Origin: an uncultured Roseiflexus sp.
GTDB taxonomy: Bacteria; Chloroflexota; Chloroflexia; Chloroflexales; Roseiflexaceae
DNA length: 36,761 nt
Direction: 5' to 3'
NCBI GenBank assembly: GCA_937935075.1
Contig: CALGYB010000116.1
Span: forward strand, 1-36,761
The translations under genes were made by a program, and so were the position numbers. Positions 5,945 through 30,977 of the stretch are shown here, piece after piece; position 1 is the stretch's first letter; every line of letters begins with the position of its first letter. The notes below the pieces were generated by a model, which did not search any database, was not told the DNA's origin, and saw nothing but the letters and a program-made list of their open reading frames with translations.

Positions 5945-5987
5945 ACAGACCTGCCAGATGACGAGATTTTTGTGACGCTACACGCAT

Positions 5988-5996
5988 ATTATAGCA
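5988..5996 (-). promoter_or_regulatory. Extended -10 promoter of the kinase operon
   Basis: On the minus strand TGCTATAAT gives an extended -10 with a perfect hexamer. A weak -35 (TTCTCA, 6014-6009) lies 15 bases upstream. The start would be near 5981, giving a leader of roughly 36 nt before the kinase ATG. Confidence 0.55.
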
Positions 5997-6063
5997 AACT
6001 GCACTGGTTGAGAAGGGGTTGCATGAAGATTGGACGCTTTCACGTCAAATCGCTGCGCCGATC

Positions 6064-6092
6064 TTGCGTGCTTGTCTCTCCTCTGGTATGAT
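6064..6092 (+). promoter_or_regulatory. Predicted promoter of the DUF362-like gene
   Basis: TTGCGT (6064-6069) and TATGAT (6087-6092) are 17 bases apart, and TG at 6085-6086 region makes the -10 extended. Transcription from about 6099 would leave a short leader of about 20 nt before the paired ATG codons. Confidence 0.5.
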
Positions 6093-6119
6093 CCTGGCGC
6101 ACAAAGACGACCATCTTGC

Positions 6120-7016
6120 ATGATGCTCACCGCGCCAGACGCTGCCGTTGCAGCAGTGCATACCGCTCCAGCCACCGTTGCCGCCGATTATCAGCGGTTA
6201 CTGGCGCTGATCGAAGTCCATGCTCTGCCACGCCGCGCCATTCTGATCCCACGATACGCGCGACGGATGCCATTTCCCGGCGCCGGCGCACCGCCCTGGC
6301 AACTGGAGAAGGTTGCGCACCTGTTGCGTGGCGCGGGAGTTGCCTCGATCACTGCGTTGCTGCCCCTTCCCCGCAACGACCGGTACGGGTATGCGTCGAT
6401 TGCCGCTGCACTCGGCATTGAGGCGCTACGCCGCCCGCTGCCGCTCGACGGCGAGACGCTGGTCGTTGTGCTGGCGCCGTGTCGGATCGACCGGTGCAAT
6501 GGGCTGTTTGGCGCCACGCATGGTCCGGCGGCAATCTTTCATCCCGCCGCAGCGACGCGCAATACGCTCCGTGGCATTCCAGCCCTGGCGCAGGTGCGAT
6601 GCGTCGGCGCGCCGCTTCTGGCACTAGCGGACGCAACGACGATCAGTGATGGACGTGACACCGAAGCGGAGTACGCCGAGGTGCGCAATGTGCTCCTGGC
6701 GTCCCGCGATCCTGTGGCGCTCGACGCAACCATTGCCGCGCGGTTCGGTCTCGATCCGCTCCACGAGGTCCCCTGGCTGCGCGAGGCGCACCAGCAGGGA
6801 TTGGGTATGGCAAACCCGAACGCGATCACGATCTGTGGCGATAGCGATACGCTGAACGAACCGTGGGGGCTGGCGGCGCCGTCATCCCGCCGGGCAATCC
6901 GCTGCTTCCAACGCTGGACGCCGGCGGATGCGACAACCCTGCTGAGCTGGCTGCACCATACCGGCTGGGGGCGGCTGTTCCGCGATTACCAGACGCGGTA
7001 TGCCGTCCCTGCTTAG
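6120..7016 (+). CDS. DUF362-like protein, function unknown
   Basis: The 298-residue product has the motif LLASRDPVALDATIAARFGLD (broken here as RDPVALDA at its core) followed by VPWLREAHQQGLG, which resembles the C-terminal half of DUF362 proteins. Those proteins are often linked to iron-sulfur or metal chemistry, but here the ferredoxin-like cysteine clusters are missing; only scattered cysteines occur (for example CRIDRC in the middle). No signal peptide or membrane segment is visible. Two adjacent ATG codons (6120 and 6123) are possible starts; no Shine-Dalgarno precedes them and the predicted leader is short. The gene stands alone, convergent with the P450 gene, and its stop codon touches a copy of a dispersed repeat. 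Family assignment is moderate. Confidence 0.6.
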   Translation: MMLTAPDAAVAAVHTAPATVAADYQRLLALIEVHALPRRAILIPRYARRMPFPGAGAPPWQLEKVAHLLRGAGVASITALLPLPRNDRYGYASIAAALGIEALRRPLPLDGETLVVVLAPCRIDRCNGLFGATHGPAAIFHPAAATRNTLRGIPALAQVRCVGAPLLALADATTISDGRDTEAEYAEVRNVLLASRDPVALDATIAARFGLDPLHEVPWLREAHQQGLGMANPNAITICGDSDTLNEPWGLAAPSSRRAIRCFQRWTPADATTLLSWLHHTGWGRLFRDYQTRYAVPA

Positions 7017-7059
7017 AGCCTATCCGGAAAAGATCGTCGGGTAGGCGAAGGCAATGCCT
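7016..7059 (+). repeat. Truncated copy of a MITE-like repeat
   Basis: The 44 bases starting GAGCCTATCCGGAAAAGATC are nearly identical to the left half of the complete element at 34736-34825. The right terminal repeat is missing, and sequence diverges from about 7060 on. It lies between two convergent genes, touching the TAG of one and ending near the stop of the other. Confidence 0.7.
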
Positions 7060-7071
7060 GTGACTGCCCGG

Positions 7072-8277
7072 CTACAAGGCAAGGTGCAACGACTGTAAAC
7101 CGCGCAGCGCAAAATTGTCGCGCCATACGACGCGCTCATTTTGTATGCGCATATGAGGAAATCGGCGTATCAGCGTACTGATCGCCACCTGTCCTTCCAG
7201 CCGAGCCAGAGGCGCGCCAAGGCAGTAGTGCGAACCATGCCCGAACGACAGATGCCGCACATCGTTGCGTGTCAGGTCGAGCCGACCCGGGTCTTCGTAC
7301 TGCGCCGGATCGCGGTTTGCCGAACCGATGAAGAGGGTCACCGTCTGCCCTGCCGCGATGTGATGCCCCTGGAACTCAATGTCGGTCAGCGCGCGGCGGC
7401 TGGTCATCTGCACCGGACTGTCGTAGCGCAACAGTTCTTCGACGGCTGCTGCGGTCAGTTCCGGATGATCACGCAGCAGGGCGAACTGATCGGGATGGCG
7501 CAGCAGCGCCAGCGTGCCGTTGCCGATCAGGTTCGTGGTTGTTTCATGACCGGCGAGGAGCAGCAGGATGCTGTTGGCAACCAGTTCCTGTTCGCTCAGG
7601 CGATCACCGCCATCTTCCGCCTGCGCCAGCGCCGAGAGCAGGTCGTCGCGTGGCGCGCGGCGCCGCTCAGCCACCAGAGCCAGAATGAAGTCGCTCATGT
7701 CCAGCACCGCTTGCAGCGCCGCCGGAAGCACCTCGGCTTCAGGGCGGGTTGTGCCGCCGATGAAGGCTGCCAGGCTATCCGACCAGCGACGAAACTGATC
7801 GTGCATATCGACAGGCACGCCGAGCATGTGGGCAATGACTGTCACCGGCAACGGGTACGCGAACTCGCCGATCAGTTCGATCTCGCCGCGTACTGCGGCA
7901 GCGTCGAGCAACTGATCAACAATGCGCTGCACCAGCGGACGGTACGACTCGACAACGCGCGGCGTAAAAGCGCGGTGGACGAGCGTGCGCAGTCGGGTAT
8001 GATCCGGCGGATCGGTAAAGAGCATCATCTTCGCGCGGGCTTCAAAGAGCGGTGCAAGCCCAGTCGTTGCCAGCCATTGCGGGTCGGCCTGAAACTGCTC
8101 GGCGCCCAGGCGCAGATCACGGAGGAGGGTCTGTACGTCTGCGTAACGAAACATCTGCCAGTCGCCCCCCGTCCAACGGATCGGTTGTACGGCGCGCCAG
8201 TAGTCATAGATCGGGTAAGGATTGTCGATGGCTGCCGGACTCCAGAGTTCGGGCAGCGGTTCGGTTGGAGCGTGCAT
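7072..8277 (-). CDS. Cytochrome P450
   Basis: This 401-residue soluble bacterial P450 should hydroxylate or otherwise oxidise a small molecule using electrons from a ferredoxin or flavodoxin partner that is not encoded nearby. The haem-ligand loop reads FGHGSHYCLGAPLARLEG with the proximal cysteine near residue 352. The I-helix oxygen-binding motif AGHETTTNLIGNG and the K-helix region EELLRYDSPVQ are also present. The length and absence of a membrane anchor fit class I enzymes related to CYP107-like hydroxylases. The ATG at 8277 follows AGAGGAAG at good spacing. It is divergent from a dihydroorotate-dehydrogenase-like gene. Its last codons overlap the ragged end of the repeat at 7016. The substrate cannot be inferred. 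Confidence 0.95.
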   Translation of the reverse strand: MHAPTEPLPELWSPAAIDNPYPIYDYWRAVQPIRWTGGDWQMFRYADVQTLLRDLRLGAEQFQADPQWLATTGLAPLFEARAKMMLFTDPPDHTRLRTLVHRAFTPRVVESYRPLVQRIVDQLLDAAAVRGEIELIGEFAYPLPVTVIAHMLGVPVDMHDQFRRWSDSLAAFIGGTTRPEAEVLPAALQAVLDMSDFILALVAERRRAPRDDLLSALAQAEDGGDRLSEQELVANSILLLLAGHETTTNLIGNGTLALLRHPDQFALLRDHPELTAAAVEELLRYDSPVQMTSRRALTDIEFQGHHIAAGQTVTLFIGSANRDPAQYEDPGRLDLTRNDVRHLSFGHGSHYCLGAPLARLEGQVAISTLIRRFPHMRIQNERVVWRDNFALRGLQSLHLAL

Positions 8278-8373
8278 AGGCTTCCTCTTGTTATTCCCTT
8301 CATCCTGTATATGTATGATACGATACGCGAGATGACCATTGTTCCGTTCATTCGGTCATTCGAGGAGGATTGC

Positions 8374-9180
8374 ATGCAGCCGGTCGATCTGGCGCCACAC
8401 AACCCGTATGGACTGTCGCTGCGCACGCCGGTGATGACCGCTGCCGGTTGTCTGGGGTTTGGCGTCGAATACGAGCGGATGGCGCCTATCGAACGTCTGG
8501 GCGCGATTGTCACCGGAAGCGTGTCGTTACGCGGCAGGCGCGCTCTGCCGCTGCTGCGCCTCATTGAAACGCCGGCTGGATTGCTGAGTGTGGGCGCGTG
8601 GCGCGATTCCGGGGTGGATCGGGTGCTGCGCGAGTACGTTCCGATATGGGCAGCCTGGAAGACACCGGTCATTTTGAGCGTGGCGGCGGATCATCGCGAT
8701 GTGGCGACTGCGCTCGAAGGCGTCGAAGGCATTGCCGGCATGGAACTCATCTTCGACGACGAGTGGAGTTCTGCTGCAAGAGTCGTTGCAGCGGTGCGCG
8801 CTGTGACTCTGCTGCCGCTGCTGGTCAAACTGCCCTTACACGAACGCCTGATAGCCACAGCGCGCGCTGTGATCGATGCCGGCGCCGACGCAGTGACGAT
8901 TGCCGCGCCGCCAACCGGCTGCGCCCCCGATCCGCACACCGGCGCATTACTGCATGGCCGGCTCTCAGGTCCTGCCATCCGTCCACTGGTGCTGGAAGCC
9001 GTCACCAGGGTGTGCGCCATGCTGCCGGCGCCAGTTGTGGCGTGTGGCGGGATCGCAACGGCTGCTGATGCACACTCCTTTCTGAGGGCAGGCGCGACTG
9101 CGGTGCAGGTAGGATCGGCGCTGCTCGCCGATCCGTGGGCGGCAGTGCGCATTGGGGAGGCGCTGGAGAACATACCCTGA
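8374..9180 (+). CDS. Dihydroorotate-dehydrogenase-like protein, divergent
   Basis: The 268-residue product follows the PyrD class 1 fold: TPVMTAAGCLGFGVEY near 18-33 corresponds to the family's NPVMTASGTFGYG, IETPAGLLSVG near 64-74 to the family's AETPAGML, and the C-terminal FMN phosphate region VVACGGIATAADAH and GATAVQVGSALLADP is well kept. However, the family's catalytic loop (I-x-x-N-x-S-C-P-N) is replaced by MELIFDDEWSS (near 123-133), and the lysine of the TKSIT motif is replaced in TGSVS (47-51). It is therefore unlikely to be an ordinary dihydroorotate dehydrogenase. The ATG at 8374 has GAGGAGG five bases upstream. It is divergent from the P450. It may bind FMN for another reaction. 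Confidence 0.7.
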   Translation: MQPVDLAPHNPYGLSLRTPVMTAAGCLGFGVEYERMAPIERLGAIVTGSVSLRGRRALPLLRLIETPAGLLSVGAWRDSGVDRVLREYVPIWAAWKTPVILSVAADHRDVATALEGVEGIAGMELIFDDEWSSAARVVAAVRAVTLLPLLVKLPLHERLIATARAVIDAGADAVTIAAPPTGCAPDPHTGALLHGRLSGPAIRPLVLEAVTRVCAMLPAPVVACGGIATAADAHSFLRAGATAVQVGSALLADPWAAVRIGEALENIP

Positions 9181-15125: not shown

Positions 15126-17489
15126 TCAGCGCAAACTTACAAAGCGCGCCAGTTCGCCAAACCCGCGCGGCAGGCGCACCCTCCGCCCTTCGAGCGCGCC
15201 GCGCCCTTCGAGCGTGCGCCGCACCACTGCAATCAGGCCGCCGGTGACGCCGATGATCACTCCCAGCCACACCAGCATCACTCCCGGCTTCAGGCTCAGG
15301 GTGATGACGGCTTTCGCAGGATCAACCGGCAGGTTCAGTCCTTCGACACGGATCAGCACCCGTCGCTGCAACGGGTCGAACGCTGCCAGCGTTGCCTGAT
15401 GACCGCCGGGCAATGCCGCAGGCAAGTCCATAATGCTGCCAACCGGGTCCGACGGGCTGGTCACCAACCGCACTTTGGGCGTCAGTTCGATCGATTCCCC
15501 TTCATAGGTGACGCGCAGTTTCGCCCCCACATCGGCGCTGCCGGTGGCGTGCGCATCCGGCACCTCGAATGCCAGGAACGTAAACTCGTAGGGTCCAACC
15601 GTTCCCGACTGCCCGATGCCCATATCCGCCATATTGCGGTCGTATGGCGGCTGATATTCCGACGGCGAAATGTAGACATCGCGGAACAATTCGCTTCGGA
15701 TCGAAGGGGTCGCCATCGTGGCGCCCATGGTCTGATTGAAATAGAGCTGCGGCGTCGCGCTAAAGGTCTCGTTCCCGTGGGTCACGGTCAAGTCGAGAAT
15801 GCCGCGACCCTCTGGCGTTTGTCGCCAGCCGTTGAACGTCACCGCGTAGCCGAACGCACTGACGCTCTCCCCTTCCGGCACGAGCAGGCGCACCTCCTCC
15901 GTCGCATACAGAGTCGAGGCAACCGCGCCAACCAGGAAGACCATCAGACCGACGTGCGCCAGGTAGCCGCCGATACGCAGCCAGCCGCTCCGCAAGGTGC
16001 GGACGATCATCAGGACGTTCGTGCCGAACGCAAAGGCGCACAGGGTGACATACGCGAGCGGCAACGGATCACGTGCGCCGAGCAGCAGCCCTACACAGGC
16101 AACAACGACTGCCAGGACCGCCGGGAAGCGCAGCGCGCGGAGCAGGGACCGTTTATTCGTATCACGCCAGCCGAGCAGCGGACCAATGATCAGAAGGATC
16201 ACCAGGATCAGGCCCAGCGGCGGTACGGTAGTGCTGTAGAAATCGCCCACCAGACCGAAGCGCCCGTCGGCGAACGGCTGTGCATTGGGGTCAAACGTCG
16301 TCCCATCATCGACCTGGAACGAACCGGCGAAGATCGACTGCAACTGATGCCCGACGCCGGGGATGGCGGAGATGAGCGGCATCGACGTACCCAACCCGAC
16401 GACCGCAGCGATAACCAGCAGTGCAATGATCCCCAGCACGAAGAAACTATCACGCGAAAGAAGTTTATCGGAGAGTGGCTTGCCCGGAATGTCGCGCCAG
16501 CGCCACGCCAGCACGCCAAAGCCGCCGATGACAAGGAGCGCCAGCGATGCGAAGAGAACCGTTTTCAGTCCCTCCTCGACGAACGAGTGCACCGAAAACG
16601 ACGACAGCACGCCGCTGCGGGTCAGGAACGTCGAATAGAAGACGAAAATATAGGTAGCAATTGCCAGAGCGAATGTTGTGCGCCGCAATCCATGACCGGT
16701 GCGCTGCACGAGCATGGCGTGCAGCAACGCGGTTGATGTCAGCCAGGGCACCAGCGACGAATTCTCAACCGGGTCCCATCCCCAGTAACCGCCCCACCCC
16801 AGCGTCTCATATGCCCAGTAGCCGCCGAGCAGCAATGCCAGGCCGAGGAACACCCAGGCTGCCAGCGTCCATGGCAGGGCGTCGTGCACCCAGCCATCGT
16901 AGTCGCGGCGCCACAACCCGCCAATGGCGAAGGCGAACGGCACAGCCATGAGCGCGAAGCCGACGAACAACACCGGCGGGTGGATGAGCATCCACATGTT
17001 CTGGAGCGTCGGGTTGAGTCCTTTACCGTCCGGCGGCGTCACCGCCACGCCATTCTGCATCAGAGGCACAAACGGGTTGCGGATCAGCATATAAAACAGG
17101 AGCGCCGCCTGGATCGCCATAAAAATCGTGAGCACATACGGCTCGGAGTGGCGCGTGCGGCGCACCAGGAATTGCGCCGCAATCACCCCCCACAGCGCCC
17201 AGATCACGAACGACCCCGGCTGACCAGCCCAGACCGCCGCCACACGAAAGGCTGGATCGAGCGCGCGCTCGGTGTAGTTATAGACATACTCAATATCGTA
17301 CCGCTGCGCGATGAACAGATAGTTCAGCAGCGCCACAATCGCCAGCACTGCAACCAGCGTCATTCGCACGCCGACTCGCCCGAAAGTCAGCGCCGCCAGA
17401 TTACCGCGCGGCGCCAGCGCATACCCGGCAGTCGCCAGCAGGGCGGACGCCAGCCCGGCGATGATCAGAGTTGTTCCAAGCAGATACAT
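15126..17489 (-). CDS. ccmF: Cytochrome c maturation haem lyase subunit CcmF
   Basis: CcmF is the membrane core of the System I haem lyase, which takes haem from CcmE and helps attach it to apocytochrome c. The 787-residue product is hydrophobic throughout the first 550 residues and carries the haem-handling tryptophan-rich motif GYWGWDPVENSSLVPWL near residue 240, preceded by YWAYETLGWG. A large extracytoplasmic domain follows toward the C-terminus, then a last membrane segment and a basic tail. The ATG at 17489 was chosen because GAGGGTGGG precedes it and MYLLGTTLIIAGLASALL is a typical family start; a frame open 38 codons further upstream has no family likeness. Length is a little above the usual 650 or so. 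Confidence 0.95.
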   Translation of the reverse strand: MYLLGTTLIIAGLASALLATAGYALAPRGNLAALTFGRVGVRMTLVAVLAIVALLNYLFIAQRYDIEYVYNYTERALDPAFRVAAVWAGQPGSFVIWALWGVIAAQFLVRRTRHSEPYVLTIFMAIQAALLFYMLIRNPFVPLMQNGVAVTPPDGKGLNPTLQNMWMLIHPPVLFVGFALMAVPFAFAIGGLWRRDYDGWVHDALPWTLAAWVFLGLALLLGGYWAYETLGWGGYWGWDPVENSSLVPWLTSTALLHAMLVQRTGHGLRRTTFALAIATYIFVFYSTFLTRSGVLSSFSVHSFVEEGLKTVLFASLALLVIGGFGVLAWRWRDIPGKPLSDKLLSRDSFFVLGIIALLVIAAVVGLGTSMPLISAIPGVGHQLQSIFAGSFQVDDGTTFDPNAQPFADGRFGLVGDFYSTTVPPLGLILVILLIIGPLLGWRDTNKRSLLRALRFPAVLAVVVACVGLLLGARDPLPLAYVTLCAFAFGTNVLMIVRTLRSGWLRIGGYLAHVGLMVFLVGAVASTLYATEEVRLLVPEGESVSAFGYAVTFNGWRQTPEGRGILDLTVTHGNETFSATPQLYFNQTMGATMATPSIRSELFRDVYISPSEYQPPYDRNMADMGIGQSGTVGPYEFTFLAFEVPDAHATGSADVGAKLRVTYEGESIELTPKVRLVTSPSDPVGSIMDLPAALPGGHQATLAAFDPLQRRVLIRVEGLNLPVDPAKAVITLSLKPGVMLVWLGVIIGVTGGLIAVVRRTLEGRGALEGRRVRLPRGFGELARFVSLR

Positions 17490-17555
17490 CCCACCCTCGA
17501 TATCTAGAGCGCTTCTTACCCTGCGTAAGTCATGCCCGGACGTTGTGCGGGTTAT

Positions 17556-17580
17556 GTCGGCTTCGACAGGCTCAGCCGAC
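17556..17580. repeat. Dispersed hairpin repeat, copy B
   Basis: GTCGGCT and AGCCGAC form perfect 7-base arms around the loop TCGACAGGCTC. The loop matches copy A at 14097, while arm bases differ but still pair. It lies between ccmE and ccmF. Confidence 0.6.
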
Positions 17581-17621
17581 GCGACACGCGGCGCCGGAGT
17601 CAAACATAAAGACTGTACACG

Positions 17622-18041
17622 TTACTGCGCAGCCGATTGCATTTCCTGATATTTCGACGGGCATTTGACGAGCAGATCATCGGCGAGGAAAACGCCGCGC
17701 GCTGTATCGTAGTGGCCAATCGCCACGATGCTCACCGCCTGCTCGAAATTCGACGGTTTTGGTTTAGCGTAGACGACCGGAATCATCTTGCCCGTGTTGT
17801 CCTGCAACATAAAGACGAAGTTGCCATCGGCGTCGTACCTGCCCATATCGCCGAGATAGCCGGCCAGTTGCACGCTGCGTCCGCTCTGCGTCGCTTCGTC
17901 GATGCTGACCGTGTACGGTCGGTACGACGCGGTCAGCCCGTAGTATCCCAGACCAATCGCCAGCACAATCACTGCCGCGCCGAGCATGTGGAGCGGCTTA
18001 ATCGCCGGTGCACGGCGAACTGGAGAAGAAAACGTCGCCAT
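17622..18041 (-). CDS. ccmE: Haem chaperone CcmE, cysteine-type variant
   Basis: CcmE carries haem covalently outside the membrane from CcmABCD to CcmF. The 139-residue product has an N-terminal anchor (about 18-38) and an OB-fold beta domain (VQLAGYLGDMGRY, NFVFMLQD, IPVVYAKPKPSNF, VSIVAIGHYD). In classical CcmE the haem-binding residue is His in an H-x-x-x-Y motif; here it is C127 with Y131 in VKCPSKY. A Cys-type CcmE is known from some archaea and sulfate reducers. The ATG at 18041 has AGGAGG at ideal spacing; an upstream start would add 13 unlikely residues. It lies 25 bases after the small CcmD-like gene. Confidence 0.92.
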   Translation of the reverse strand: MATFSSPVRRAPAIKPLHMLGAAVIVLAIGLGYYGLTASYRPYTVSIDEATQSGRSVQLAGYLGDMGRYDADGNFVFMLQDNTGKMIPVVYAKPKPSNFEQAVSIVAIGHYDTARGVFLADDLLVKCPSKYQEMQSAAQ

Positions 18042-18066
18042 TGTCGCCTCCTGGCGTCTCAAACGC

Positions 18067-18300
18067 TTACTCTTGAGCATCTGTCACCGATACCGTCTCA
18101 CGCGCGTGGCCATTGCGAGTTTCGAGGGTGGCGCGCGGCGTCGCTGCCGGCTCAACCGGCGCTTCCTCATCGAGGCGGCGGCGCAGTTCGCGGGTGGCGC
18201 TATCGATCCGCCACAGAAAGATAAAAATACCGATCCAGACCGTCAGCGCCACTGCCAGCGCCGTGTAGATCGCAATCGCCGGTTCAAGCAGGAAGTTCAT
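18067..18300 (-). CDS. Small CcmD-like membrane protein
   Basis: The 77-residue product has an N-terminal single membrane segment (about 10-32, AIYTALAVALTVWIGIFIFLWRI) followed by a charged helix (DSATRELRRRLDEE) and a low-complexity tail. This shape and position between ccmC and ccmE fit CcmD, the small subunit that holds CcmC, haem and CcmE together and helps release holo-CcmE. CcmD is poorly conserved in sequence, so assignment rests on topology and order. The ATG at 18300 overlaps the end of ccmC by 17 bases and has AGGCGG upstream within it. Confidence 0.75.
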   Translation of the reverse strand: MNFLLEPAIAIYTALAVALTVWIGIFIFLWRIDSATRELRRRLDEEAPVEPAATPRATLETRNGHARETVSVTDAQE

Positions 18301-19270
18301 AAGCCGCCTCCCGTCGCGCCAGACGCTCCTGCAACAGCAGCACGTCGGCACGAAGTCGATACAACCAGATAAACAACCCCAGAAACCCAATATTTGCCGC
18401 CATAAAGGTCCAGAAAGTGCGGCTATTGCTCAGCAGCCCGCTTCCTGGCGCTTCCATGTTGAGCAGCACCCGACCATTCGCCAGATCGACGCCTTCGACC
18501 GCCAGAAGGAACTGTTGACCGGGGAACTCAGGACGATCCGCCGGTTTACCGCTTGCCAGTTCAAACGACGGCTCCAGCAACGCCACCTCGCGCAAGCCGG
18601 GCATACGCACTTCCACCTGCGCAACCGCAAGATCGCCGCGTTGCTCAACCCCTTGCAGCGCCAGCACCACATCACCAAGCTGACCGATGCGCGTCCCATT
18701 CAATTCAAGCCAGATGCCGTCGCAATGGCTGCCCTGAATGAAGGCGCAATTCGGATGCAGCGTGCTATCGGCCATGCGCGGCGCAACGAACAGGAGGAAC
18801 GGCATCGTCACTGCGGCGAACAGATTGTAGACTGCCGCGAGGCGACGGCGGCGCTCAACATCATCGAGCGCGGAACGCAGCGCGAAGTAGGCGGCATAGA
18901 TCAGGAGCAGAATGAGAATCGTCGTCTCGCGCGGATCCCAGTTCCATGGCGTCCCCCAGACGATATTGGCGAACCACATCCCGGAAACGGTTGCCAGCGC
19001 GCAGAACAGGAATCCGGCTTCAGCCGCCGCCACGGCGCCGGCATCGTCCGCAGGTCGGCGTTTCCAGAGATAACGGATGCTGTACACTGCAGAAACAGCA
19101 AAGGCGACGGTTGTAATCCAGGCGGTGGGAACGTGCAGAATAATGATACGCCCGGCGTCGCCGAGGCCAACGTACTGCGGCACGATCAGGAACATCGCTA
19201 CGACGATTCCGGACATCCAGACGCCAAGGAGGAACTTGGCAGCCTGATCGAGGCGAAGCCTGTCACTCAT
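18284..19270 (-). CDS. ccmC: Haem-handling membrane protein CcmC with extra domain
   Basis: CcmC presents haem to CcmE. The 328-residue product has the expected membrane segments, the tryptophan-rich motif WGTPWNWDPRET near 105-116, and the haem axial histidines H46 (LHVPTAW) and H172 (STLHPN). Ordinary CcmC is about 240 residues. Here some 110 residues (about 173-285) are inserted after the second His and before the last membrane segment (TFMAANIGFLGLFIWLYRL). The insert is predicted outside the membrane and includes a pair of cysteines, C175 and C183, and beta-rich sequence. The ATG at 19270 was chosen on family likeness; a weak AAAGAG precedes it. It lies 78 bases after ccmB. Confidence 0.93.
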   Translation of the reverse strand: MSDRLRLDQAAKFLLGVWMSGIVVAMFLIVPQYVGLGDAGRIIILHVPTAWITTVAFAVSAVYSIRYLWKRRPADDAGAVAAAEAGFLFCALATVSGMWFANIVWGTPWNWDPRETTILILLLIYAAYFALRSALDDVERRRRLAAVYNLFAAVTMPFLLFVAPRMADSTLHPNCAFIQGSHCDGIWLELNGTRIGQLGDVVLALQGVEQRGDLAVAQVEVRMPGLREVALLEPSFELASGKPADRPEFPGQQFLLAVEGVDLANGRVLLNMEAPGSGLLSNSRTFWTFMAANIGFLGLFIWLYRLRADVLLLQERLARREAAYELPA

Positions 19271-19348
19271 GGAACGGCTCTTTCTAGGCATCGCGCGGAT
19301 GCTGATTGCTGAAATGATACTACATGTGACAGGGTAAATCAAATGTTT

Positions 19349-20098
19349 TTACGGTTCCCATACACTGTTGAACAGGAAAAGTGAAGCTGTAAAGAGAGCA
19401 ATTGTATACCCCGCCAGCACCTGCAATGAACCGACGCCGCTCTCCCACCCGCGCCCCGCTATCGCATTGGCGCTTCCCTGAATGGCAACCACCAGCAGCG
19501 GCGCCAGCAACGGGAACGACAGCACTGCAAAGAGCGCCCCTTTCACGCTGGCGCGCGCAATGATCGCTGCGATCAACGTCGTCGCCGCCACCAGCCCCAG
19601 GCTGCCCGCCAGCAGCAGCGCCGCCAGCAACCCCGGGTTGCCCGCCTGCACCCGCAGCATGATGATGAAGAGCGTGGTCGTCACTGCAACGAGCAGCAGC
19701 AGCAGCGCCAGATTGAACAGCAGTTTACCGAGGAAAACAGCGGTCGGGCGGGCGGAAAGGCGCAGCGCAGCGGCAGTGCGCGCTTCTTCTTCCTGTACGA
19801 AGGCGCGTGCCAGACCGGTGAACGCCGCAAACAGAATAGCGACCCACAGCAGCGCCGCCTGGATGATCGGCAGGTCGGCATTGCGTGAGACGGTCAGCGG
19901 TCCCATCCCCATGCTCATTGCCACAACGGTGCTGACGGCGAACAGCAGAATGGCGTTGAGCGCGTAGCGTGTCCGCAGCTCGCTGCGCACATCCTTGCGG
20001 AACACCGCCCACGCCGCCATCAGGAGCGGCGCTTCTGACGGCATTGCGGTCGAGGAAGTCTCAATCGCGCTCTGAGGTGAAATATGCGGGTCCATCAC
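19349..20098 (-). CDS. ccmB: Haem exporter membrane subunit CcmB
   Basis: CcmB is the permease partner of CcmA in the complex that releases holo-CcmE. The 249-residue product has a family-like cytoplasmic start AWAVFRKDVRSELRTRYALN followed by six hydrophobic segments, including FAVSTVVAMSMGMG, VAILFAAFTGLARAFV and a final YTIALFTASLFLFNSVW. The frame opens with GTG at 20098 followed at once by ATG at 20095; neither has a strong Shine-Dalgarno. It lies 58 bases after ccmA and continues to ccmC on the same strand. The N-terminal 25 residues before AWAVFRKD are longer than usual. Confidence 0.92.
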   Translation of the reverse strand: MMDPHISPQSAIETSSTAMPSEAPLLMAAWAVFRKDVRSELRTRYALNAILLFAVSTVVAMSMGMGPLTVSRNADLPIIQAALLWVAILFAAFTGLARAFVQEEEARTAAALRLSARPTAVFLGKLLFNLALLLLLVAVTTTLFIIMLRVQAGNPGLLAALLLAGSLGLVAATTLIAAIIARASVKGALFAVLSFPLLAPLLVVAIQGSANAIAGRGWESGVGSLQVLAGYTIALFTASLFLFNSVWEP

Positions 20099-20156
20099 GT
20101 TGTCTCGTTATGGCGCTCCAGATCCCCGGCATCGCGGAACGTCGCAGGCGGGAGCG

Positions 20157-20789
20157 CTATTGCGCCAACCGCAGGATGTAATCGCCAAACCGTTCTTCAC
20201 GCGGGTCATTGGTGGCAATGATTGTGATTCCATGATCGCGCTGCCGGGCGATCACTTGTTCGACCAGCGCCACACCACGCGCATCGAAGGTCACAGTCGG
20301 TTCGTCGAGCGCCAGGATCCGCGGACGGTGCAGCAACGCATAGGCATAACGCAACCGCTGCGTCATACCCGACGAGTACGCCGCCAGGAGATCGTCGCCG
20401 CGCCCGCCTAACCCAACCCGATCGAGCAGTGCTTCCAGGTCGGCGCGGGTGCAGCGAATGCCCCGCACGGCGGCGAAAAATGCCAGGTTCTCCAGGGCGG
20501 TCAACTCACGGTAGAGGTACAGATCGGGCGCAACCCAGCCAAGGAGGTGCAACGCCTCCGATGGGCGCAGGACCGTTCCGTTCGTCCTGATCACCACTGT
20601 GCCGCGCGCCGGGCGTTGCAACCCGCAGATAACCCGCAGCAACGAACTCTTCCCGCTGCCATTGGCGCCGGCCACGACCAGCGTCTCACCGGCGCACAAC
20701 TCGAACGATACGCCCGCCAGCACCCGCCGCGCGCCGTACTCGATTGCCACGTCGTTGACGATTAAACGCAAAGGTTCGTTCATTCGCAT
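20157..20789 (-). CDS. ccmA: ABC ATPase CcmA
   Basis: CcmA powers release of haem-loaded CcmE from the CcmBCD complex. The 210-residue product has Walker A GANGSGKSS near 41-49, the signature YSSGMTQRL near 137-145, and Walker B ILALDEP near 157-163. The switch histidine of the H-loop, normally in a T-H-D context, is Asn in IIATNDP (near 193). CcmA proteins are often non-canonical here, but a missing His should slow hydrolysis. Two possible ATG starts (20789 and 20783) lie six bases apart. It is the first gene of the ccm operon A-B-C-D-E-F plus the J/TPR gene, all on the minus strand. Confidence 0.94.
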   Translation of the reverse strand: MRMNEPLRLIVNDVAIEYGARRVLAGVSFELCAGETLVVAGANGSGKSSLLRVICGLQRPARGTVVIRTNGTVLRPSEALHLLGWVAPDLYLYRELTALENLAFFAAVRGIRCTRADLEALLDRVGLGGRGDDLLAAYSSGMTQRLRYAYALLHRPRILALDEPTVTFDARGVALVEQVIARQRDHGITIIATNDPREERFGDYILRLAQ

Positions 20790-26805: not shown

Positions 26806-28098
26806 ATGCGATGCTATCTGGTTGCCATTCTACTGATTGCTGCGTTGCTCGCCGGGTGTGAGTCGCGCGGCGCGCCCGACATCTCTTCAGCCCCAACAAA
26901 CGTCGCAAACGCTCCCAGTGTCGGACCACTCCTCCTCTGGCATGGATGGTCGGGCAGTGATCGGCAGGCGCTTGGACGCCTGGTTGAGCAGTACAACCGT
27001 CAGCAGAGCGATGGGCGCATTGTGCTGCAATCGGTGCCGCTGGCGAGCTTCGCCGCCGAACTGCGCGCATCTGTCGCTGCGGGCAGCGGTCCGCACCTGA
27101 TTCTTATTCCCAATACCTGGATCGGCGGGCTGGCGGAAGCGGGAGTGCTCCTTCCACTCGATGATCTGATGCCAGCCCAGGAGATCGATGCGCTCCTGCC
27201 GGTGACGCTGGCGAGTGCGCAGGCGGACGACGTCGCCGGCACAGTACGACTTTATGGCGTACCTGTGCGCTTCGACACGCTGGCGCTCTACTACAACGCT
27301 GCTAATCTCACCGAGCCTCCCGCCGATACCGCAACCATGCTCGCTATCGGACGCGGCTTGAGCGACCCGGAGGCTCAACCGCCGATTTGGGGGCTGGCGC
27401 TCAATCTGTCGCACGACAATATGATCGGGTATCTGTATGCCTTCGACGGGCGGATTTTCGACGGCGACGGACGGGTTGCGCTTGGAACGACCGGCCGCGC
27501 AGGCGCAGAACAGTGGCTTTCCTGGCTGATCGAACTTCAAAATGATGCGCGCATTCTGGCGCGCAGTGAGAGCAGCATCCTGGTTGATCGTGAATTAAAG
27601 GATAGGCGCGCCATTATGACGTTCGATTGGGCGCATCAGATGAGCGTCTATCGTGGTCTGTGGGGCGAGCAGATCGGTCTTGCGCCGCTGCCGCGCCTGA
27701 GTGAGACAGGGCAAGCGCCACGTCCGTATGTACGCACCGATGTCCTGGCGATCAACAGTCTTGCCGGAGTGAACGAGCGTGTAGCAGCGGCGCGATTTAT
27801 CCGTTTCATGATCAGTGAAGAAGCGCAGACTATTCTGCTGCAAAGCGATATGCAGCCATCGTCGCGCCGCCTGGCGTTGACCGGCGACTCACCACAGGAG
27901 ATTGCAGCGCGGGTGTTCCGCATCCAGGCGGAACAGGGGCTTCCCATGCCCAACTCGAGTGCACGCGCCTTTGTTGAGCAAGAGATCAAGCGCATGCAGC
28001 GTCAGGCGTTACTCGGTCTCACAACGCCGGCTGACGCCGTTACCGAAGCCGACCGGCGGCTGCGCGAACGATTGGAGCCTTCCGCGCCGGCGCCGTAA
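26806..28098 (+). CDS. ABC-type solute-binding lipoprotein (family 1)
   Basis: The 430-residue product begins with a lipoprotein signal MRCYLVAILLIAALLAGC, lipidated at C18, so it is anchored on the outer face of the membrane. The rest resembles family 1 extracellular sugar-binding proteins: LVEQYNRQQSDGR, ILIPNTWIGGLAEAGVLLPLDDL, YGVPVRFDTLALYYNAANL, and a C-terminal AARFIRFMISEEAQ with a final helical region. Such proteins deliver sugars or similar solutes to an ABC permease. No permease or ATPase genes lie near it, so it either serves a distant transporter or acts as a sensor component; the regulator gene immediately downstream is suggestive but weak. Its last residues are alanine/proline rich. 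Confidence 0.9.
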   Translation: MRCYLVAILLIAALLAGCESRGAPDISSAPTNVANAPSVGPLLLWHGWSGSDRQALGRLVEQYNRQQSDGRIVLQSVPLASFAAELRASVAAGSGPHLILIPNTWIGGLAEAGVLLPLDDLMPAQEIDALLPVTLASAQADDVAGTVRLYGVPVRFDTLALYYNAANLTEPPADTATMLAIGRGLSDPEAQPPIWGLALNLSHDNMIGYLYAFDGRIFDGDGRVALGTTGRAGAEQWLSWLIELQNDARILARSESSILVDRELKDRRAIMTFDWAHQMSVYRGLWGEQIGLAPLPRLSETGQAPRPYVRTDVLAINSLAGVNERVAAARFIRFMISEEAQTILLQSDMQPSSRRLALTGDSPQEIAARVFRIQAEQGLPMPNSSARAFVEQEIKRMQRQALLGLTTPADAVTEADRRLRERLEPSAPAP

Positions 28099-28125: not shown

Positions 28126-28154
28126 TTGTGTAAAGCGATTGTCTACAGTATAAT
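28126..28154 (+). promoter_or_regulatory. Predicted promoter of the NarL-type gene
   Basis: TTGTGT (28126-28131) and TATAAT (28149-28154) are 17 bases apart. Transcription from about 28161 would leave a leader of about 130 nt before the GTG start. Confidence 0.55.
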
Positions 28155-28292
28155 ACCCGATAAGCATACCGTCTCAGCCTCATTCGTCGTTGTCTGCAGG
28201 CGCCTCAGCAGGCGTCGTAGTGCGCTTAAGCGAGCGCATCATCATTATCACCCGGCGCGATGGCGAAGAACGGATCACATCGGGAGGACGGG

Positions 28293-28988
28293 GTGGATTC
28301 AACCTCGATCGTGCTGGTCAACGCGCATGCTCTCTTTCGCGAAGGGTTGCGCCATCATCTGGCGAGTTCAACCGAGTTTTGCGTAATCGGAGAAGCGGGC
28401 AATGGTCAACAGGCGATTCAAGTTGTCGACTCACTCGACCCCGACATGGTCGTGATGGAGGTGGACCTGCCGGGAGTCAATGGTCTCGAGGTCGCACGCG
28501 CCATCAAACGGTCACATCCGCATATTCGCATCGTCCTGCTCAGTTCGACGATGGATGGGCAGGAAGTGGTCAAAGCCATTCGCGCCGGCATCGCTGCCTG
28601 CGTCCCGCGCAATATCGTTCCTGAGAAGCTCATGCAGGTGCTGCATCAGGTACGACGCGGCAATTATCCGATCAACGATCTGGTGCTCTCCTCGCCCGAC
28701 GTTGCGGCGCAGGTGCTGAGCGCCTTTCGCCAGATGGCGGCGGAAGAGGACACCCAGAGCATCTACTCGCCGCTTTCGCCGCGTGAGTTGCAGGTCCTCG
28801 AACTGGTCGCCGCCGGACGCACCAACAAGGAAATTGCCAAACTGCTCGACATCTCCAACCAGACCGTCAAGAACCATATCTCGTCGATCCTGCGCAAACT
28901 GGCGGTGAATGATCGCACACAGGCGGTCGTCTATGCCATGCGCCGCGGATGGATCAAGGTTGCGCTTCCCGGCGACCCGCTGACATAG
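28293..28988 (+). CDS. NarL-type regulator with degenerate receiver
   Basis: The 231-residue product has an N-terminal receiver-like domain and a C-terminal LuxR-type helix-turn-helix (LSPRELQVLELVAAGRTN, KEIAKLLDISNQTVKNHIS near 160-205) that should bind DNA normally. Every conserved phosphorylation residue of the receiver is altered: the acidic pair is N10-A11 (VLVNAHALFREGL), the phospho-acceptor Asp is E56 (MVVMEVDLPGVNG), and the Lys of the usual L-L-K-D is Arg in VPRNI. It may therefore act without phosphorylation, the Glu possibly mimicking the active state. The GTG at 28293 was chosen because GGAGG lies six bases upstream; an ATG 33 bases earlier has no such site. Confidence 0.88.
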   Translation: MDSTSIVLVNAHALFREGLRHHLASSTEFCVIGEAGNGQQAIQVVDSLDPDMVVMEVDLPGVNGLEVARAIKRSHPHIRIVLLSSTMDGQEVVKAIRAGIAACVPRNIVPEKLMQVLHQVRRGNYPINDLVLSSPDVAAQVLSAFRQMAAEEDTQSIYSPLSPRELQVLELVAAGRTNKEIAKLLDISNQTVKNHISSILRKLAVNDRTQAVVYAMRRGWIKVALPGDPLT

Positions 28989-29114: not shown

Positions 29115-30977
29115 ATGACCCGAATTCGCATCTCCTTCTTGATCATCCCCTTCGTGGCGCTGGCGCTCACTGCCTGTGAACAATTCTCGATCGCCGAACA
29201 GGAACGCATCCGCGAAATTGAAACGGTCGAAGCTTCGACGCCAACAATCACGCCCATTCCGCCAACCAACACGCCGACGCCACTGCCGCCCACCCCAACA
29301 TCAACTCCCGGTCCGACGCCGACACTGCCGCCGCCTACCCCAACCGCTACGCCAACACCGACGCCGCTGCCGCCCACTCCGACGCCAAACCCGATTCTGG
29401 CGCAGTTCAGCCTGTGCAATCAGCAAGCCGGCGATCCGACGAGCGGACGGTTCAGTATGCGGGTGACGGCGATAACCACGACGGTTGATGCATTTTTTGA
29501 ACGGCTCGAACTGACGCTCGACGTTCCTGCCGACTCGGCGCAACCGCACGCTTCAGCGCGCTGTCGCCCGGCGTCTGCCGTCCCCCAGACTATCGGCGAG
29601 ATCGAGGTGGCTGGCGCATACCAGATCGAGGTGCAGTTCGACGGATGGCTGCATGATGATGCATTCCGTGCATCGCTGGCGACACGGACAGTACCGTTGA
29701 GCGGCACACAGATCATGCGCGCTGCCGCGTTTCGGGTTCCCTCCGGCGCAACTACAGGCGCACAGTTGGTAATCGGCGTCGATCAGCCGCTTCCGTTCCG
29801 CATACGCCTGGAAAATAATCCGCTGCGCCTGGTCATCGATGTGGCAACAAGCGGACCGGTCAGCCAGGCGAGCGATCTGTTGCGTATTCCAGCAGGCACA
29901 GCAGCAGCGCCCGCAGCGCCGATCTTCTACGTGGCTGACGGCGATATCTGGCGCATCAGCAATGGCGCGCCGGAGAATGTGACCGAACGCCTCCGCGCCG
30001 GACAGTTTGGCGATGTGACGGCGCTGGCTACCCGCCCGAATGCGCGGGTGATCGCCTTCTGCGCAACAGCGCCGGGTACGGTCACAGCGGATGCCACTGC
30101 CGCTTCGACCCTGTGGGTGCTGGAACTGGACAGTGGTTCGATCCGTCAGTTGACGCCGCCGCCGCGCGGGCGCTCGTGCGTCGATCCGGTCATGTCGCCG
30201 GATGGAACAACGATCGCTTATGCGGTTGATGAGGCGGGGGTGTCGCCGCCGCAACTGCGCATTTTCTCGGTACAGGTCTTTCCCGGCGCGCCTGCCGTCG
30301 TTCTGACCCCATCCGGCGATGAGTGGAGTCGTTACGCACCGCAATGGCTCGATGATGCGCGTCTGATCTACGCCGCGATCGCCGAGGATGGTCGGAGGAC
30401 GTTGTTCCTGCGCGAATCCGATGGAACCGAACTCGATATTGGCATGGCGCTGCTGGTGTCGGGAGCAGGCGGGCAGCGCAGCGCCCGGTACGATGGATTT
30501 GGTCGCCCGATGGCGGCGCCCGATGGCAGCGCCATTGCTGTCGAAGCATTCCGTATCGACGGCAGCGGCGCTGACCTGCTTATTCTGAACCGGTCGGGCG
30601 CTGAGATCGAACGTCTCAGCCCAATTGCCGCAGGGTTCTGGAATCGCCCGGTCGCCTGGAGCGCCGACGGGACGCTCTACTACCTCTCCACCGCCTGCGC
30701 CAGCGATGCGGTGTATGAGTACACGCTGCACGCGCGAAACGCCGACGGCGCTGACCGGGTGCTGGCAGCCGGCATTGCTGCCGGCGGTCTGGGGACCTTC
30801 ACCGCACACCAGAATGCACTGGCGTATGTCACCTTCGACCGTCTACCGGAGGGACCGGCCGGTCCGCTCCGTGTTGCGCCTGATGAACCGGCTGCGCTCT
30901 GGTACTGGGACCTGACGGGCAATGCGCGCGCGCGCCTGGTGGAAACTGATCGCGCAATTACTGCTCTGGCGCCATGA
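29115..30977 (+). CDS. Lipoprotein with Pro/Thr linker and beta-propeller repeats
   Basis: The 620-residue product has a lipoprotein signal ending in LALTAC, lipidated at C21. A low-complexity linker of Thr-Pro repeats (about 41-93) follows and would span the cell envelope. Next comes a beta-rich domain (about 95-245) with PLRLVIDVATSG that recalls AMIN-type modules. The C-terminal two thirds carry TolB/WD40-like repeats, seen in VMSPDGTTIAYAVDE, GRPMAAPDGSAIAVEAF and PVAWSADGTLYYLST, forming a beta-propeller for binding. It is therefore a cell-surface binding or scaffold protein of unknown partner. Its stop overlaps the HyuA start (ATGA). A similar architecture is frequent in Chloroflexota envelopes. 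Confidence 0.8.
   Translation: MTRIRISFLIIPFVALALTACEQFSIAEQERIREIETVEASTPTITPIPPTNTPTPLPPTPTSTPGPTPTLPPPTPTATPTPTPLPPTPTPNPILAQFSLCNQQAGDPTSGRFSMRVTAITTTVDAFFERLELTLDVPADSAQPHASARCRPASAVPQTIGEIEVAGAYQIEVQFDGWLHDDAFRASLATRTVPLSGTQIMRAAAFRVPSGATTGAQLVIGVDQPLPFRIRLENNPLRLVIDVATSGPVSQASDLLRIPAGTAAAPAAPIFYVADGDIWRISNGAPENVTERLRAGQFGDVTALATRPNARVIAFCATAPGTVTADATAASTLWVLELDSGSIRQLTPPPRGRSCVDPVMSPDGTTIAYAVDEAGVSPPQLRIFSVQVFPGAPAVVLTPSGDEWSRYAPQWLDDARLIYAAIAEDGRRTLFLRESDGTELDIGMALLVSGAGGQRSARYDGFGRPMAAPDGSAIAVEAFRIDGSGADLLILNRSGAEIERLSPIAAGFWNRPVAWSADGTLYYLSTACASDAVYEYTLHARNADGADRVLAAGIAAGGLGTFTAHQNALAYVTFDRLPEGPAGPLRVAPDEPAALWYWDLTGNARARLVETDRAITALAP

Follow-up and report, generated by a model that had tools for sequence, protein, structure and literature searches.

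The window, by which we mean the whole stretch of 36,761 nucleotides from an uncultured Roseiflexus sp. analysed here, carries the gene of a degenerate response regulator, followed on the same strand by the gene of a predicted lipoprotein and preceded by that of a solute-binding lipoprotein. The features needed below are the following.

26806..28098, plus strand: solute-binding lipoprotein, outside the conserved unit (no tblastn match in 58 loci).
28126..28154, plus strand: putative promoter of the unit, TTGTGT-N17-TATAAT, from dyad over-representation; it ends 138 nt before the start codon.
28281..28287, plus strand: Shine-Dalgarno-like cgggagg ahead of the GTG, read from the sequence; the codons before the start recur in five same-genus orthologues.
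28293..28988, plus strand: degenerate NarL/FixJ-type response regulator (pseudo-receiver and LuxR-type HTH), 231 aa, GTG start, from translation, orthologues and model.
28320..28325, plus strand: N10-A11 codons at the Asp-Asp pair site of the regulator (residue counts, 51 rows).
28458..28460, plus strand: E56 codon at the phospho-acceptor site (residue counts, 51 rows).
28608..28610, plus strand: R106 codon at the conserved-Lys site (residue counts, 51 rows).
28770..28937, plus strand: HTH (GerE) DNA-binding domain (Pfam, 81 bits), spanning residues 171-226 when counted in the frame from 28260.
29115..30977, plus strand: partner, a predicted lipoprotein carrying both an AMIN-like domain and a TolB-like beta-propeller (Pfam, profile and fold searches; 46/46 testable loci, 44/44 genomes).

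Analysis of the regulator translation (VDSTSIVLVNAHALFREGL...PDMVVMEVDLPG...IVLLSSTMDG...AACVPRNI...) placed N10, A11, E56, S84 and R106, numbered from the GTG at 28293 (V1). This start is backed by five same-genus orthologues (L002-L006), which have the identical start position and codons (EDGV) over a GGGAGG-like Shine-Dalgarno. The N-terminal receiver (Response_reg PF00072, 73.3 bits, cut-off 30.2) and the C-terminal GerE/LuxR-type HTH (cut-off 23.5) identify the protein as a member of the NarL/FixJ family. The sequence-only reading, which had described the Asp pair, the phospho-acceptor and the Lys as all altered beside an intact DNA-binding domain, was thus confirmed by the translation and by the GerE score, with the gene and its codons correctly placed. 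Its term "fully" degenerate is slightly too strong: the pocket residues are changed, but the receiver still has S84 at the Thr/Ser position, P60 (the Pro at D+4) and G64 (the Gly at D+8). Residues 187-195 of the HTH (ISNQTVKNH) do not vary in 19 aligned rows. No NCBIfam equivalog scored above its cut-off among the matches listed. The AlphaFold model shows two domains with a mean pLDDT of 87.3, and the fold search placed LiaR, DesR, VraR and NarL closest, with a full-length TM of only ~0.5 that we take to reflect the domain arrangement of the model; profile and fold searches designate VraR/LiaR as the nearest solved relatives.

To place these substitutions in the family, named-species genomes were scanned with two short peptide patterns, a search that misses orthologues with neither peptide, and the best 80 of 233 loci were retained. 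Fifty of them (L069-L118) are degenerate and 58-96% identical to the window regulator; their record titles read Roseiflexus, Chloroflexus, Oscillochloris, Viridilinea, Chloroploca, Herpetosiphon, or just Chloroflexi, Chloroflexota or bacterium. The other 30 (L119-L148; Thermomicrobia, Anaerolineae and others) are canonical, at no more than 52% identity, apart from a deviating second Asp in L142 and L146 and an incomplete L128 (102 aa, truncated), which was left out of the canonical counts. The window and the 50 degenerate loci make up the 51-row set used throughout, always within the best 80 of 233. We also searched the window's own genome and those of 29 relatives, 30 in all; 23 of them, its own included, carry the regulator at an identity of at least 60%, and these 23 partly overlap with the 50 loci.

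Across the 51 rows, position 10 is H in 46 and N in 5; position 11 is A in 39, T in 4, G in 4, D in 3 and E in 1; position 56 is E in 34, D in 15, K in 1 and N in 1; position 84 is S in 38, G in 8, N in 3 and A in 2; and position 106 is R in 40, P in 4, H in 3 and A, G, S or Q in one row each, never K. The canonical paralogues display D10, D56 and K106 in 33/33 rows each. The first Asp and the Lys are therefore missing in 51/51 degenerate rows versus 0/33 canonical ones, a contrast larger than chance would give, and none of the 51 rows has the intact DD/D/K pocket of a canonical response regulator. As to whether the substitutions are conserved in orthologues, a check proposed by the sequence-only reading, the answer is positive for the first Asp and the Lys but not for the remaining sites, where D56 occurs in 15/51 rows and an acidic residue 11 in 4/51. 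With its PF00072 match and N10, A11, E56 and R106, the window regulator is a pseudo-receiver as defined in the accessible text of Bourret et al. (PMC12632262). It is likewise an aspartate-less receiver (ALR), E56 leaving no Asp at the phosphorylation site, a class in which the Chloroflexi are enriched according to the accessible part of the ALR survey (PMC4395418); the orthologous family straddles the ALR boundary because 15 of its 51 rows keep D56. Two long-branch orthologues, L108 and L118, carry K56 and N56 respectively with the HTH retained and offer natural tests of the importance of residue 56. Among the canonical-looking paralogues, two from Centralia MAGs have an Asp pair reading DE (L142) and DA (L146), the latter being a pseudo-receiver under the definition in the accessible text of PMC12632262.

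A tree of the regulator family was built by a quick method from 94 rows, after removal of eight near-copies and L128 and with long branches flagged. This quick-method tree groups all 43 degenerate rows in a single clade with an SH-aLRT of 100; the stem leading to it is 1.53 changes per column long, and the deeper joins are unsure. Within this clade position 56 changed seven times and position 10 once, to Asn. Comparison of the window with four close orthologues gave a dN/dS of 0.04-0.05 for the receiver, where dS (0.9-1.3) is near saturation, and of 0-0.04 for the HTH. The receiver is under purifying selection, and since its dN/dS is about 0.05 it has a function. Judged from these comparisons, the degenerate regulator has a long history and is strongly conserved among many members of a single order.

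The conserved neighbour of the regulator is the lipoprotein gene downstream. A regex detected its lipobox (LTAC, C21), so that its lipoprotein status is a prediction; a Pro/Thr-rich linker, an AMIN-like domain (aa 117-244) and a TolB-like beta-propeller follow. Pfam found the AMIN-like domain at 37.8 bits (cut-off 27), plus PD40. Elsewhere the AMIN-like match exceeds the Pfam cut-off in L118, is weaker in L075 and L106 and was not found in L100 and L111, and is thus below the cut-off or missing in four of the five other partner lipoproteins scanned. The name AMIN hints at peptidoglycan binding. The propeller is nearest to TolB (profile E 8e-10; Foldseek E 4e-11, TM by target 0.49) in a model with a pLDDT of 81.9. 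In an alignment of 24 of 26 rows (L116 and L085 removed), the lipobox Cys C21 is invariant in 24/24, as are five more Cys.

With tblastn this gene was detected downstream of the regulator, and in the same orientation, in all 46 degenerate loci that have more than 650 nt of downstream sequence (46 of 50, best 80 of 233); in the other four (L078, L087, L108 and L109) the sequence ends 218-635 nt downstream of the regulator. None of eight canonical loci tested (8 of 30) has it. Among 60 relatives, both the regulator (at least 60% identity) and the lipoprotein (E<1e-40) were present in 44, adjacent in every one, and neither was present in 16. Since these 16 genomes fall in four genera (g3, g8, g9 and g19), the independent absences of the pair are few; seven of the 16 are under 90% complete. 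Neither gene is present in G007, G012-G017 and G030-G037, which represent three genera of the same family (g3, g8 and g9); genomes are small in g3 and g8, not in g9. In a sample of 201 genomes of the phylum, scored on up to 6 and 14 candidates per genome in the two scans, the lipoprotein was found in 18 and the degenerate regulator in those very 18, all of one order. A 19th lipoprotein match is weak and confined to part of the propeller, and regulator scores fall from 396 to 296 bits below the 18. The gap between the two genes ranges from 3 nt (Chloroploca) to ~170 nt, with ~120 nt in Roseiflexus-type loci, a spacing compatible with an operon, the probable arrangement of this pair. In L077, L117 and G051 the reading frame of the lipoprotein is interrupted or incomplete, which may reflect assembly error or decay. 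Because the genes adjoin wherever enough DNA existed to look, the regulator and the lipoprotein probably work together.

Regarding the upstream side, the solute-binding lipoprotein gene lies between an asparaginase-family gene and the regulator. That a binding lipoprotein stands next door without transporter genes, as had been remarked from the sequence, is literally true, no sugar permease being found among the 25 window genes scanned with Pfam, but this neighbour is not conserved: tblastn gave no match at E<=1e-8 in 58 loci (1.1-6 kb upstream) and none in five wider loci. It was thus ruled out as a partner of the regulator, and with no match in the 58 related loci it may be strain-specific at this site. 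The gene dnaN (DNA polymerase III beta clamp) lies ~50 nt to 1 kb upstream of the regulator in 27/50 loci (best 80 of 233), all within L074-L118, ending ~45-130 nt upstream in Chloroflexus loci, and is absent from this position in Roseiflexus and Herpetosiphon loci. Of seven near-complete genomes, each with a single dnaN, just the three that belong to family f4 have this gene beside the regulator, and dnaA lies anywhere from ~30 kb to megabases from the regulator; an origin-proximal or replication role was dropped on these two grounds. In the window dnaA is found at 385-1725 on the minus strand, ~27 kb from the regulator, and in one locus it lies just behind the lipoprotein (L106:9374-10771), 2.7 kb downstream of the regulator. 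Six Herpetosiphon-type loci (L107, L110-L114) have an FtsW/RodA-family gene divergent from the regulator. Cytochrome c maturation genes (CcmF-like, a second Cytochrom_C_asm protein, CcmB and an ABC ATPase) occupy 15129-20789 of the window on the minus strand.

A motif search upstream of the regulator returned the promoter-like TTGT-N17-GCTATAAT as its sole pattern, and no operator was found in the 42 upstream regions searched. The dyad TTGT-N17-GCTA occurs in 18 of these 42 regions, which are related rather than independent, versus at most 7 in 12 resampled sets; the putative promoter in the window carries the variant AGTATAAT. The pattern recurs in Roseiflexus-type and Oscillochloris-type loci and was not found in Chloroflexus or named Herpetosiphon loci. 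A consensus promoter scan did not list 28126..28154, whose -35 element is far from TTGACA. The strict promoter pattern has one match each in G000 and G003, and the two strict patterns occur once each in four of the five genomes searched, at the regulator locus; because they occur only there, no regulon can be read from them.

A histidine kinase gene usually, though not universally, stands beside that of a canonical response regulator. The window's own genome encodes two canonical sisters with intact pockets, P1 (G000:C177) and P2 (G000:C194), whose loci were compared between this genome and eight picked ones, using a single kinase sequence of the P1 sister type as query. A HisKA_3 kinase adjoins P1 in the own locus, and a homologue lies beside P1 in 8/8 further genomes and beside 8/8 canonical outgroup loci tested (8 of 30). 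Such a homologue was found at 0/9 P2 loci and near the degenerate regulator in 1/50 loci (best 80 of 233), the lone case, L090, being beside a neighbouring canonical sister. The degenerate regulator thus has no adjacent cognate kinase of this type.

The accessible text of a 2025 review calls the on/off switching of bacterial pseudo-receivers a mystery (PMC12632262). Starting from the loss of the catalytic residues, the conservation of the regulator under selection, the tight gene pair and the lack of a sister-type kinase next door, we favour the view that the regulator is, on balance, a phosphorylation-independent pseudo-receiver factor of the NarL/FixJ type in an order-restricted unit with an envelope lipoprotein. 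In or before the Chloroflexales ancestor, one copy of a kinase-coupled regulator family would have lost the Mg-binding Asp pair and the Lys. This copy, now without the kinase neighbour of its relatives, would have become linked to the gene of an envelope lipoprotein with an AMIN-like domain and a TolB-like propeller. The regulator would dimerise and bind DNA without phosphorylation, with an output that depends on how much of it there is or on a partner, and it would serve the envelope process of the lipoprotein, with co-transcription and autoregulation of the unit. The suggestion, made from the sequence, of a constitutive or a ligand- or partner-responsive protein is supported in part: with the first Asp and the Lys lost in 51/51 rows, independence of phosphorylation is likely and the receiver probably serves something else. 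By analogy, hints of an envelope role come from VraR/LiaR as the closest solved relatives of the regulator and from TolB as the closest relative of the propeller. VraR and LiaR are regulators of cell-envelope stress, and TolB is a soluble periplasmic protein of the Tol-Pal system.

Second in rank is a regulator that acts mainly via its sisters, as a heterodimer partner of kinase-coupled P1 or orphan P2 or as a competitor for their sites, so that kinase signals would arrive indirectly, by analogy with WhiI-BldM or RcsA-RcsB. We regard this as possible but unlikely to be the main mode of action. In its favour, 17 of the 18 phylum-sample genomes with the degenerate regulator hold three family matches at E<=1e-70, that is, two besides it. 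In addition, the HTH of the window regulator is 71-73% identical to that of P2 and 62% to that of P1, while receiver identity is 32-42% to the sisters (32-36% to P2). Residues 190-203 (QTVKNHISSILRKL) are the same in P2, including Ser197 in the recognition stretch of the HTH, which is replaced by Thr in P1 and the other canonical rows. However, this likeness to P2 is not special overall, because the HTH is equally close (73%) to a canonical Thermomicrobium protein. Viridilinea mediisalina has the genes of the P1 kinase and the P1 regulator 3.7 kb upstream of its degenerate copy (L090:362-2264 and 5974-8779), and G045, a genome of 5.3 Mb, has a P1-like gene, classed as such by identity, at a distance of 17 kb, but P1-like and P2-like genes are distant from the degenerate regulator in G003, G018, G042, G047 and G054. 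G014 has P1 without a degenerate copy, although this genome is only 71% complete. Between the P1 pair and the degenerate regulator of L090 stand topoisomerase I-like and phosphatase-like genes, named by eye.

A more elaborate version would join kinase-coupled P1, orphan P2 and the dead sister with its TolB-like AMIN lipoprotein into one signalling module of the Chloroflexales, in which the dead receiver is a heterodimer partner or competitor and the lipoprotein reports or tunes the state of the envelope. We put this forward tentatively, as rather unlikely; if true, an envelope signal would be read without phosphorylation of the dead regulator.

We judge it improbable that the emptied pocket (H/N10, A11, E/D56, R or another residue at 106), or another site of the receiver, is a sensor of a small ligand or of redox state. 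There are precedents: the accessible text of PMC12632262 names pathway products as the signal for JadR1 and RedZ, and oxidation as that for HP1021-type regulators, the redox Cys of the latter lying 19 residues past the Asp pair, with an uncertain counting start. A ligand site would accord with His10 in 46/51 rows and its single change, to Asn, and with a receiver kept functional by selection (dN/dS ~0.05), but positions 11, 56, 84, 85 and 106 differ among lineages, which is unusual for one ligand site. The motif W[FLM][TS]R, which we take to be that of VpsT-type c-di-GMP receptors, is missing in 51/51 rows (best 80 of 233), and this kind of binding was discarded as a general mechanism. As for redox, Cys30 of the window protein (28380-28382) follows the second Asp-pair site by 19 residues, which would match the HP1021-type redox Cys if the count is made from that site, and it is common to L081 and L108. 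It is found in these three of the 51 rows only (best 80 of 233), Cys103 in the window only, and 46/51 rows have no Cys in the first 222 residues, so that no conserved regulatory Cys of the HP1021/RitR type is shared and a redox Cys was rejected as a general mechanism. With Cys30 confined to these three rows, redox switching does not characterise the family, although the window's own protein may use it. The argument from the K+2 residue in the accessible text of PMC12632262 does not discriminate here, canonical paralogues likewise having I/V.

The proposal that Glu56 is a fixed phosphomimic keeping the receiver active, put forward in the sequence-only reading, fared poorly, and we now find it quite improbable. 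Glu is the commonest residue at position 56, and according to the accessible text of PMC12632262 it can partly activate many regulators; in the window's own protein E56 could still act so. Across the family (best 80 of 233), Glu56 is not the constant feature, being found in only 34/51 rows beside D in 15, K in 1 and N in 1. This weakens the reading, as conservation of Glu at the phospho site would be expected of a phosphomimetic family. In addition, position 56 changed seven times on the tree versus once for position 10, and none of the 51 rows has the Lys with which such a mimic is supposed to make contact. A labile position 56, a stable position 10 and the lack of Lys in 51 rows thus point to a pocket that has been dispensed with, not frozen as if phosphorylated. 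We think that the family gave up the phosphorylation pocket rather than being locked into the phosphorylated state. Residual phosphorylation may persist in some lineages, given D56 in 15/51 rows and an acidic residue 11 in 4/51; substitutions at the DD, T or K sites do not always abolish phosphorylation, as stated in the accessible text of PMC12632262.

Finally, a recent degenerative mutation or pseudogene of this strain, the condition under which the sequence-only reading itself would have fallen, has next to no chance of being the explanation and was ruled out, since the first Asp and the Lys are also lost in 50 orthologous loci (best 80 of 233), orthologues are present in genomes of four families (f1-f4) and the dN/dS of the whole protein is 0.03-0.07.

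Compared with known systems, the favoured phosphorylation-independent regulator has the two-domain architecture of VraR, LiaR and NarL, which have intact pockets and cognate kinases. It shares with RedZ, JadR1, VpsT, CsgD and NblR the combination of a pseudo-receiver and a DNA-binding domain not governed by Asp phosphorylation. RedZ has a Glu at its phospho site, NblR is known as a pseudo-receiver regulator, and all five stand in other operon contexts; VpsT has the c-di-GMP motif that is absent here in 51/51 rows (best 80 of 233). The hosts of WhiI are filamentous and multicellular, as are the Chloroflexales. Streptomyces WhiI, which forms a partner pair with BldM (PMC4125116), is, like our regulator, an orphan atypical NarL-type protein, but here the losses extend to both members of the Asp pair and, in many cases, to the phospho-Asp, and a lipoprotein adjoins, whereas the accessible text of PMC4125116 mentions none next to WhiI. 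Regarding the lipoprotein, the partner resembles TolB in its propeller but is itself a predicted lipoprotein, in which an AMIN-like domain precedes the propeller. LpqB of the actinobacterial MtrAB-LpqB system has a propeller too, and the MtrA receiver is canonical. In that system, the regulator operon includes the lipoprotein LpqB, which modulates MtrB (accessible text of PMC5487470). With a regulator gene beside that of an envelope lipoprotein, it is the nearest precedent known to us, a likeness by description only: MtrAB has a kinase, whereas none was found next door here and the first domain of the lipoprotein is AMIN-like. The open-access literature, with subscription papers mostly outside it, yielded pseudo-receiver reviews and BldM-WhiI but no title on a Chloroflexales regulator-lipoprotein pair.

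The locus therefore presents a known kind of protein, a pseudo-receiver NarL regulator, in an unusual and tightly conserved two-gene unit. The family constitutes a natural experiment: residue 56 shifts among E, D, K and N, yet neither the first Asp nor the Lys returns in any of 51 rows (best 80 of 233), and this contrast separates a model of a Glu mimic from one in which the pocket is not needed. The canonical sisters in the same cells provide matched controls, and through the linked lipoprotein the physiological setting of the regulator, the envelope, becomes open to testing.
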